DNA of 56,699 nucleotides. Origin: Bacteroidota bacterium (GTDB lineage: Bacteria; Bacteroidota; Bacteroidia; NS11-12g; UBA955). The notes under the pieces were generated by a model. That model was not told the origin of the DNA, made no database searches, and saw only the letters and a program-made list of their open reading frames with translations. Position 1 is the first letter of the stretch. Every line of letters starts with the position of its first letter. This document shows, one piece after another, positions 36,918 through 54,225 of the stretch. The stretch is taken from positions 1-56,699 of the forward strand of contig JAURGZ010000006.1 of assembly GCA_030833525.1 (NCBI GenBank), in the 5' to 3' direction. Both the position numbers and the translations under genes were made by a program.

Positions 36918-38396
36918 ATGGCTTTTGAGAAAGTAAAACGCAGCGATAACTACAGCGAATGGTACAACAACTTGGTTAAGCAAGCTGATTTGGCTGAACA
37001 CAGCGCTGTAAAAGGATGCATGGTCATCAAACCCTATGGTTATGCCATTTGGGAGAATATGCAAAAGGAATTGGACCGCATGTTCAAAGAAACCGGTCAC
37101 ACCAATGCCTATTTCCCGTTGTTTGTGCCCAAGAGCCTGTTTGAGAAAGAAGAAAAGAATGCCGAGGGCTTTGCCAAAGAATGTGCGGTGGTAACCCATT
37201 ACCGCCTGAAGGCAGATCCTGATAAACCCGGTGCCTTGATGGCCGATCCTGATTCGCGTTTGGAAGAGGAACTCGTGGTTCGACCCACCTCAGAGGCCAT
37301 CATTTGGAGTACCTATAAGAACTGGATCCAGAGCTACCGCGACTTGCCGATATTGATTAATCAATGGGCCAATGTCGTGCGTTGGGAAATGCGCACACGA
37401 CTGTTTTTGCGAACGGCCGAGTTCTTGTGGCAAGAAGGCCATACCGCTCACGCCACCAAAGAAGAAGCATGGGCAGAAACCCGTCAGATGCTGGATGTGT
37501 ACGCCCATTTCGCCGAGCATTTCATGGCCGTACCCGTAATACGCGGCATGAAAACCCCGAATGAGCGTTTTGCAGGAGCCGATGAAACCCTTTGCATTGA
37601 GGGTATGATGCAAGATGGAAAGGCCCTTCAAATGGGAACGAGCCATTTTCTGGGTCAGAATTTTGCCAAGGCCTTCGATGTGAAATACCAAAGCAAAGAA
37701 GGGAAGTTGGAATATGTATGGGCCACCAGTTGGGGTGTTTCTACCCGTTTGATGGGAGCCCTGATCATGACCCATAGCGATGATGAGGGTTTGGTATTGC
37801 CTCCTCGTTTGGCGCCCATTCACGTGGTTGCCGTACCCATCTATAAGACCGAAGAAGAACTGCAAGCGGCCAGTGAGGCCCTAGAGCCCATTTTGGGTAA
37901 CTTGCGCAAGGCCGGTTTGAATGTCAAGTTTGACAACCGCGACACTCATAAACCCGGTTTCAAGTTTGCCGAGTGGGAACTCAAAGGAGTGCCCGTTCGC
38001 TTGGCTTTGGGGCCTCGTGACTTGGCTGCAGGAACCGTAGAAATGGCTCGCCGTGATACCAAAACCAAGGAGATTGTTCCCTTGGAGGGGTTGGCAGAGC
38101 GCATTCAGGCTTTGCTTGATGAAATTCAAGAGAATTTGTTCCAGCGAGCCCTAGCCTTGCGCAGCGAAAAGAGTTTTGTGGTCAATACCTGGGACGAATT
38201 CATCGACGCCATTGAAAACAAAGAAGGATTCGCATGGGCCCATTGGGATGGAAGCTCAGAAACCGAAGAGAAAATCAAGGAATTGACCAAAGCCACCATT
38301 CGCTGCATACCCTTTGATGCTGAAGAAGAGGCAGGAGCCTGCATCTTGACCGGCGCTCCTTCGTCGCGCCGCGTGGTATTCGCTAAGGCCTACTGA
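36918..38396 (+). CDS. proS: Prolyl-tRNA synthetase (archaeal/eukaryotic-type, ProS type 3)
   Basis: Charges tRNA-Pro in the cytoplasm; 492 residues. The N-terminal segment [29 protein letters not shown] and motif 1 region [20 protein letters not shown] are those of the shorter archaeal-type ProRS that lacks the bacterial editing insertion between motifs 2 and 3. Class II motif 2 is [19 protein letters not shown], and [12 protein letters not shown] precedes it. The anticodon-binding domain ([18 protein letters not shown]) and the C-terminal zinc-domain-like tail ending in AKAY are present. Its last 14 bases overlap the 3' end of the convergent EamA gene. Confidence 0.95.
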
Positions 38397-39324
38397 TTCC
38401 TTTTCGCTTCTGGTACTGATCGATCAGAGGCGAGGCGAAGATGGCACCCAGAATCACAGCGGTTCCCACATAGAACCAACTGTTCAAATCTTCGTTTTCA
38501 TGAAAAATCAAGGCGCCCAATACAATGCCGTAAACGGGCTCCAAATTGACCGTTAAATTGGCTGTAAAGGCACTCAATTGGCTCAAAGCGCGGGTTCCCA
38601 ACCAGAAGGTGAGATTGGTGCACAACAAAGCCAAAAGCAGGGTCCAGATCCAATCGCTGGCCATTTGAGGCAATAAGCTGTCTTCGGGTTTGAGCCACAG
38701 GGGCATGAGCAGGCTCAGGGCAGTCGCACCAGAAACCATTTCCAACGTGCTGATAGCCCAAGCATCGGCCTCCTCAATGTATTTCTTGTTGAGAACGGTG
38801 AACAAGGCGGCTAAGGCAGCCGACAACAATCCGCTGATGACCGCTGCCCCAAATCCCGATCCATTCAAATGCTGGAACTCGGCGGCCTGCTCGGCAATCT
38901 GCGTTCCGTAAATCAACAATATGCCGCCAATGACAATGGCTCCCAGAACCAAGTCCTTCTTCGAAACCGGCTTGCGCAGCAACCAAGGCTCCATGAGGCT
39001 GGCAAAAAATGAAGCGGCGCTTAGGCAGGCTAGGGTCACCGAGGCGCTGTTGCCCAGTTTGATGCTTCCGTAAAAGGTGATCCAATGGGCGCAAACCACC
39101 AGGCCAATGCCCAGGAAAATGCGTATTTGCCTCCACGATAGGCGGGCCAGGCTTTTCCAAACCACGGGAAGGGCGAGATAGACCAAGCTGGTCAAACTCA
39201 TGCGCTGCCAAACCAGCAGAAAAGAGCCGTAGCTGATGAGCTTACCCAGTATGGCGGTGAAGCCCCACAAAAGCACAGCGATGTGCAGGTAGGCGAGGGC
39301 GCGGTTGCGGGAAATGTCGGGCAT
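38383..39324 (-). CDS. EamA/DMT-family inner-membrane transporter
   Basis: 313 residues from the ATG at 39324; the frame extends upstream through the leader region, but that part is not protein-like. About ten hydrophobic helices in two EamA repeats ([18 protein letters not shown] ... [15 protein letters not shown]; then [20 protein letters not shown] ... [20 protein letters not shown]). EamA carriers export or import small metabolites (amino acids, nucleotide sugars), and the substrate here cannot be inferred. CTCTTCG lies 4 nt before the start, similar to the box before the S41 peptidase gene. A candidate small RNA or attenuator precedes it. Confidence 0.9.
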
Positions 39325-39347
39325 GTTACGAAGAGTGGGGTACCTAT

Positions 39348-39379
39348 AAAAAATCAAGGCCGCACTTTGCAGCACGGCC
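39348..39379 (-). terminator. Rho-independent terminator just upstream of the EamA gene
   Basis: On the minus strand GGCCGTGC (39379-39372), loop TGCAAA, and GTGCGGCC (39365-39358) form an 8-bp stem with two G-T pairs, followed by TTGATTTTTT. It lies 24 nt before the EamA start and about 104-135 nt after the manC stop. Confidence 0.75.
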
Positions 39380-39436
39380 AGGATGTTGGTATATAAAAGC
39401 GCGTAACAGTTGGCGTTACCCAGATTAACGGGTAAC
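39348..39436 (-). ncRNA. Candidate ~90-nt small RNA or transcription attenuator upstream of the EamA transporter
   Basis: A -7 box (39441-39448) predicts a start near 39436. The transcript opens with a perfect 7-bp hairpin (GTTACCC, loop GTTAATCT, GGGTAAC; 39436-39415) whose 3' arm GTAAC can also pair with GTTAC downstream (near 39407). It ends at the terminator at 39348. Promoter, two hairpins and terminator in 90 nt are the layout of a small RNA or of a riboswitch/attenuator controlling EamA. No known riboswitch class is recognised by eye. Confidence 0.45.
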
Positions 39437-39440
39437 ACTA

Positions 39441-39448
39441 CAAATATA
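39441..39448 (-). promoter_or_regulatory. -7 promoter box (TATATTTG) of the candidate small RNA
   Basis: Exact TAnnTTTG box on the minus strand between manC and the EamA gene, 117 nt before the EamA start codon. Confidence 0.5.
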
Positions 39449-39482
39449 CAACTTTTCGATAAATCGCGGGCCGAAAATCAAA

Positions 39483-40565
39483 TTAATTGTATTTGCCCTT
39501 GTACTTGTCTTTGATCTCGCCGGCTATGGTTTTCAGCTCCTGTTCCCGGTCTTTGTCCATGATCACCAAAACATCGCCTGAATCAACTACAACCAGGTTT
39601 TCAAGGCCATTGATGACCACCAAACGACCTGTATTGGAGTAAACCAATGAATTTTGCGTGTTGTACAATTTTTGGGAAGTGCCGATTTGAGCATTGCCCT
39701 TATCGTCCTTTTGGCTCACATCCCACAGGCTTTTCCAAGTGCCTAAATCGCTCCAGCCAAAATTGGCGGGCAATACATGGACATTCTTCTCTTTTTCCAT
39801 GATGCCGTAGTCAATGCTGATGCTGGGGCAAAGACCGTAAGCCCGTTCCAAGTCAACCTTGAAGGAGCCGCCGTTGAAATTCAGTTTGTCGAACTGTTCG
39901 TAAATCTCAGGCAAATGTTGCTGGAAACGCTGCAAGATGGTTTTGAGATTCCAAATGAAAATACCGGCGTTCCACAAGAATTCACCGCTGTCAATGAAGG
40001 TGCGGGCGATTTCTTCGGTGGGCTTTTCGGTGAATGTTTTAACTGGGAATATGCCGTTTTCGCTCTTGTCAACGTGGAATTGAATGTAACCGTAGCCAGT
40101 ATCGGGACGAGTGGGTTTGATGCCCATGGTGAGAATGGCATCGTTGTTTTCGGCAAAATTCAGGGCTTTGGCGGCGTTTTCAATGAAGACCAACTCTTGG
40201 GTGATCAAGTGGTCTGAAGGAGCTACAATGCAAACGGCATTGGGGTTGAGCTGACGGAGTTTGAAGGTCGCCAAAGCAATGCAAGGAGCCGTATTGCGGG
40301 CCATGGGTTCTTCGATGATATTGTCCCCTTGGATGTTCGGAATGTGCTCCTTGACCAGGCCAACATAACTTTCGTTGGTGATGATGAAAATATTCTCACG
40401 GGGCACCAAGTGGGTAAAACGGCGGTAGGTTTGGGCCAGCAAAGATTCACCCGAGCCCATGATGTCCATGAACTGCTTGGGGAAACTCTTTTTGCTTACA
40501 GGCCAAAAGCGGCTACCAATGCCGCCAGCCATGATCAATACGTAATGGTTGGGATTGTGGGTCAT
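39483..40565 (-). CDS. manC: Mannose-1-phosphate guanylyltransferase
   Basis: Makes GDP-mannose from mannose-1-phosphate and GTP for cell-surface glycans; 360 residues. Nucleotide-binding signature VLIMAGGIGSRFWPVSKKSFPKQF (8-31), the sugar-phosphate loop FTEKPTEEIARTFI, and the metal/active-site aspartate region IAPSDH (VAPSDHLI). Only the guanylyltransferase domain is present: the C-terminal phosphomannose-isomerase half found in ManC of Gram-negatives is missing, which is usual in Bacteroidota. Its ATG overlaps the kdsD stop, so the two are translated from one mRNA. Confidence 0.93.
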   Translation of the reverse strand: MTHNPNHYVLIMAGGIGSRFWPVSKKSFPKQFMDIMGSGESLLAQTYRRFTHLVPRENIFIITNESYVGLVKEHIPNIQGDNIIEEPMARNTAPCIALATFKLRQLNPNAVCIVAPSDHLITQELVFIENAAKALNFAENNDAILTMGIKPTRPDTGYGYIQFHVDKSENGIFPVKTFTEKPTEEIARTFIDSGEFLWNAGIFIWNLKTILQRFQQHLPEIYEQFDKLNFNGGSFKVDLERAYGLCPSISIDYGIMEKEKNVHVLPANFGWSDLGTWKSLWDVSQKDDKGNAQIGTSQKLYNTQNSLVYSNTGRLVVINGLENLVVVDSGDVLVIMDKDREQELKTIAGEIKDKYKGKYN

Positions 40566-54153: not shown

Positions 54154-54225
54154 GGTCCCGTAGTAGAATGGATACTACGTGAGTCTCCGGAACTCAAGAT
54201 CCAGGTTCGATTCCTGGCGGGGCCA
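54154..54225 (+). tRNA. tRNA-Arg (anticodon CCG)
   Basis: Complete 72-nt cloverleaf read by eye: acceptor GGTCCCG/CGGGGCC with discriminator A (one G-T pair), D stem GTAG/CTAC, anticodon stem TGAGT/ACTCA around CTCCGGA (anticodon CCG, reading CGG), T stem CCAGG/CCTGG with TTCGATT loop. CCA is not encoded. A tyrosine integrase gene follows 170 nt downstream, so the 3' end of this tRNA gene is the probable attachment site. Confidence 0.95.

Follow-up and report, generated by a model that had tools for sequence, protein, structure and literature searches.

A probable small regulatory RNA between manC and eamA in an uncultured family of Bacteroidota

Closest described systems and the manC-eamA unit

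GibS of Bacteroides thetaiotaomicron is an RNA of 145 nt with a conserved single-stranded seed at its extreme 5' end, followed by two hairpins (PMC7366714). Small RNAs derived from UTRs or lying within operons have also been reported in Bacteroides (PMC7366714). In Flavobacterium psychrophilum, Rfp18 is predicted to act on protease mRNAs by its third stem-loop, and the TAnnTTTG promoter box occupies positions -12 to -5 (PMC9723704). A further comparison is offered by the attenuators and riboswitches of 5' leaders, in which a promoter, a structured leader and an intrinsic terminator stand directly before a transporter gene.

The unit considered here combines traits of these systems. It lies on the minus strand between manC and eamA in the window, which denotes the whole analysed stretch of 56,699 nt (Table 1). 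Compared by description only, it resembles GibS in being an intergenic element of Bacteroidota with its own promoter, an intrinsic terminator and a highly conserved single-stranded segment. It is likewise set apart by description, as the seed of GibS is at the 5' end whereas the present RNA is capped by a 5' hairpin and has its open stretch in the centre. The likeness to Rfp18, an independently transcribed and strongly structured small RNA conserved among flavobacteria, is also one of description, and so is the difference, namely the action by a third stem-loop and another architecture. With the 5'-leader systems the unit shares the order of promoter, structured leader and terminator before a transporter gene. 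The evidence given below indicates that the unit is almost certainly a real RNA family, and very probably a real, previously undescribed regulatory RNA.

Table 1. Coordinates of the unit and of its flanking genes, counted from the first letter of the window.
Feature	Position	Strand	Sequence, basis or remark
Whole unit	39448-39348	minus	TATATTTG-TAGT-(GTTACCC GTTAATCT GGGTAAC)-GCCAACTGTTACGCGCTTTTATATACCAACATCCT-(GGCCGTGCT GCAA AGTGCGGCC)-TTGATTTTTT
Sigma-A -7 box of Bacteroidota, type TAnnTTTG	39441..39448	minus	TATATTTG; consensus match
5' hairpin	39415..39436	minus	GTTACCC-(GTTAATCT)-GGGTAAC; first G = predicted +1
5' hairpin arms	39436-39430 / 39421-39415	minus	perfect 7 bp
Linker, near-invariant, single-stranded	39380..39414	minus	GCCAACTGTTACGCGCTTTTATATACCAACATCCT, 35 nt; identity and folding
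Intrinsic terminator stem	39353..39384	minus	ATC/GAT lower stem, 2x2 internal loop, GGCCGTGCT/AGTGCGGCC upper stem; covariation (upper), conservation (lower)
Terminator main stem	39379-39358	minus	GGCCGTGCT-GCAA-AGTGCGGCC; 9 bp by energy model
T6 tract	39348..39353	minus	predicted 3' end of ~89-nt RNA
eamA, DMT-superfamily transporter (downstream gene)	38383..39324	minus	Pfam PF00892, 1.8e-24
manC, mannose-1-phosphate guanylyltransferase (upstream flank, outside the RNA)	39483..40565	minus	Pfam PF00483, 5.6e-41; below the cut-off of NCBIfam TIGR01479

Architecture, covariation and the linker

The original prediction had read a promoter box, a hairpin, a terminator and a T6 tract from the letters of the minus strand, and each of these features was found in place. 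The box matches its type exactly and the GTTACCC/GGGTAAC hairpin is perfect, as had been claimed. The terminator had been given as 8 bp with T6; both parts were found, but the energy model extends the stem by one pair, and TTGA lies between the main stem and the T6, spanned by the conserved lower stem. In 32 of the 33 aligned elements exactly 4 nt separate the TAnnTTTG box (a consensus match rather than a mapped start) from the hairpin's first base, the exception being the decayed copy of genome G089. As the box occupies -12 to -5 in F. psychrophilum (PMC9723704), the +1 is expected at the hairpin's first G (39436), and the invariant spacing likewise places the hairpin at the predicted +1.

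The unit is more than a chance fold, since its z-score against dinucleotide shuffles is -3.58 and its homologues in other genomes covary. Compensatory substitutions in related genomes, whose absence had been set beforehand as the refutation of the proposal, are plentiful. Among 26 distinct sequences, aligned with a model that was fitted to the structure so that pair counts lean towards it, standard pairs occupy 99.2% of the pair cells, and double compensatory changes occur in 9 of the 15 pairs against a mean of 4.1 in shuffled alignments (none of 500 shuffles reaches 9). The doubly changed cells number 33 against 6.8 in the shuffles, and when the partner was slid by 1-3 columns as a control, at most two pairs retained double changes. 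In the 5' hairpin, 6 of the 7 pairs carry double compensatory changes and 98.9% of the cells are paired; the sets GTTACCC/GGGTAAC, GTTATCG/CGATAAC and GCTGCCG/CGGCAGC can be followed by eye, and the loop is free in length and sequence. The upper stem of the terminator covaries, the lower stem is conserved, and all homologues have a T-run at the 3' end. Identity between genomes is 71% in the hairpin arms, 40% in the loop and 54% in the inner terminator. The abundance of compensatory changes supports a functional RNA.

The most conserved part of the unit is unpaired. The linker has a mean pairwise identity of 96-99%, against 32% at the four-fold sites of manC, whose protein is 62% identical between genomes. 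It is predicted to be single-stranded in all 26 distinct sequences, save for the ATC that closes the lower stem of the terminator. An open stretch of about 35 nt that is kept near letter-perfect while neighbouring silent sites are saturated suggests a strong, shared interaction. Antisense partners of two linker 18-mers (up to 3 mismatches, 24 genomes) were in no excess over the control, a search which shorter or G-U-rich seeds would escape.

Distribution and genomic context

Of 108 genomes from the same order, 38 carry the unit according to the covariance model, and every one of the 38 belongs to the window's own family (7 genera). There is one copy per genome, save in two drafts that have additional ones at the ends of contigs. 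For example, the contig JALRKL010000027.1 (L108) has near its end a second copy that shows no difference through the linker as far as CCAAACATC and diverges thereafter, L104 being from the same MAG; this is probably an assembly break, although a rearranged copy is conceivable. When 84,980 GTDB genomes were scanned for exact matches to the core pattern, a search that misses copies with a changed core, 48 matches were obtained. Thirty-seven of these score 72-117 bits with the covariance model, the broken L108 copy at its contig end scores 46 bits, and the remaining 10 (Rhodococcus, Vibrio, Mucilaginibacter and others), at 18 bits or less or unreported by the model, are chance matches. The genuine matches are all on contigs of metagenome-assembled genomes, mostly labelled Bacteroidetes or Flavobacteriales. 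The titles of six loci (L100, L101, L107, L116, L113 and L090), which name Chitinophaga pinensis, Sphingomonadales, Chryseobacterium gleum and the like, appear to be mislabelled.

A refined model run over 395 genomes of the class returned family members only, plus one weak match and no credible relative. The weak match (G421, L146; 37 bits, E 4.8e-4) was rejected as a distant homologue and put down to chance, as what it fits is mainly the terminator that follows an unrelated gene. Carriage by phages was looked for in IMG/VR, which holds no sequence matching the core pattern exactly. Rfam 15 bears out the statement that the unit belongs to no known riboswitch class: locus 39300-39500 has nothing at gathering score and nothing credible at E up to 10, the best score being 15.3 bits for RsmY on the other strand (cut-off 57). 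Elsewhere in the window, Rfam matches were obtained for a Bacteroidales small SRP RNA (RF04183; 6075-6166, plus) and a tRNA (54154-54225, plus).

Wherever the contig reaches far enough, the unit is preceded by manC and followed by eamA, both on its own strand, and no element was seen in genomes whose eamA has no manC next to it. The T-run ends 6-32 nt before the eamA start codon across the relatives (23 nt before the ATG in the window). The exception is G013, in which a patatin gene starting about 66 nt from the terminator lies between the RNA and eamA; its stop codon abuts the eamA start, hence the unit still heads the operon. Two changes account for the element on the EamA tree, namely one gain, at the root of the clade with manC-eamA, and one loss, in the sister genomes G030 and G090, where the RNA is absent and manC and eamA are still adjacent. 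Each of the short manC-eamA gaps of these two genomes (L008, L178) has a short hairpin of its own with T5 behind it, which is terminator-like, and a TAnnTTTG box precedes eamA in G030 only. Genome G089 has an open and intact eamA, yet its promoter box (TATATTCG), its linker and its T-run, which is one T shorter, have decayed together; this joint decay favours a unit with a function of its own.

In the window, a GTG at 39438 (minus) opens a frame of 351 aa (38383-39438) through the whole RNA into EamA, and gene callers could thereby absorb the RNA into the eamA CDS. At its other end, eamA overlaps a convergent prolyl-tRNA-synthetase-like gene (plus, 36918-38396) by 14 bp (38383-38396).

Mode of action and its alternatives

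The unit may well be an independently transcribed small RNA that acts in trans via its linker, with eamA expressed by read-through of the terminator; this reading is preferred with modest confidence, on sequence evidence. RNA polymerase would start from the TAnnTTTG promoter at the first base of the hairpin, copy the capping 5' stem-loop and the open linker, and stop at the intrinsic terminator. Protection of the RNA end is the probable role of the variable 5' hairpin. The invariant linker would be the working part, which probably pairs in trans with at least one mRNA, or else is bound by a protein. With its hairpin at +1 behind a promoter, its open invariant middle and its terminator, the unit is laid out like an independent small RNA such as GibS. 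As the fixed position directly before eamA allows no space for a second promoter of that gene, transcription of eamA must cross the terminator, presumably from the promoter of the unit, from manC or from both. A search of 57 relatives detected no Hfq, and a chaperone, if there is one, would have to be a different protein.

The original prediction had left the choice between a free small RNA and a ligand-responsive attenuator of eamA. The functional RNA common to both stands; the attenuator, in which the transcript is the 5' leader of eamA and a protein, metabolite or RNA on the linker decides between stopping and reading on, is a real rival but on balance unlikely. Its case is one of position. 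Every copy with enough flanking sequence heads the eamA operon, the element arose once, in the clade with manC and eamA side by side, and a terminator in the 5' leader of the gene to be regulated, so close to the start codon that no further promoter fits, is in the place expected of an attenuator, which counts against a free RNA. Against it, the GTTAC that had been proposed as the alternative partner of the 3' hairpin arm is present in the linker of the window but is lost in relatives whose arm is CGGCAGC, and no other antiterminator was found: folding the 26 distinct sequences without the 3' arm of the terminator gave no common alternative structure. The linker has no conserved aptamer-like helices, junction or loop, the hairpin loop is free, no Rfam riboswitch reaches its gathering score, and three genomes (G030, G090 and G089) have lost the element or let it decay while eamA is intact. 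Promoter, linker and terminator, taken together, favour a free RNA over an attenuator. A particular form of leader control, in which the linker would be the receptor of a previously unknown protein- or metabolite-sensing switch that governs read-through into the DMT transporter without a classical antiterminator helix, seems distinctly doubtful.

Less probable again is a dual use, in which a prematurely terminated eamA leader would also be released as a trans-acting small RNA, like the small RNAs derived from 5' UTRs. This would join the promoter/terminator unit and the open invariant linker with the fixed place before eamA, and the UTR-derived and intra-operonic small RNAs of Bacteroides are a precedent (PMC7366714). 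However, neither an antiterminator nor a target was found, and the sequence does not require both roles.

Plain punctuation, i.e. a manC terminator and an eamA promoter in either order, conserved by chance or recent ancestry, is very improbable: the position is intergenic and the terminator could also stop manC transcripts, but the promoter lies 5' of the terminator on the same strand, the linker is invariant beside saturated manC sites, and the helices covary. That the unit is not an RNA but a DNA site or a short reading frame for a leader peptide is hardly conceivable, since the GTG frame of the window is not kept relative to any start codon among the relatives (loop lengths differ, the linker has +1 and +4 insertions, and three elements have no NTG) and the compensatory base changes show pairing in RNA.

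The favoured reading, a free small RNA, would concern a host family that is uncultured and largely freshwater, a lineage known here solely from metagenome-assembled genomes. The unit adds to it a well-supported RNA family absent from Rfam, and does so in a phylum where the mapping of small RNAs is poor. In a lineage without detectable Hfq, the partner protein or the target network of such an RNA becomes a testable question.
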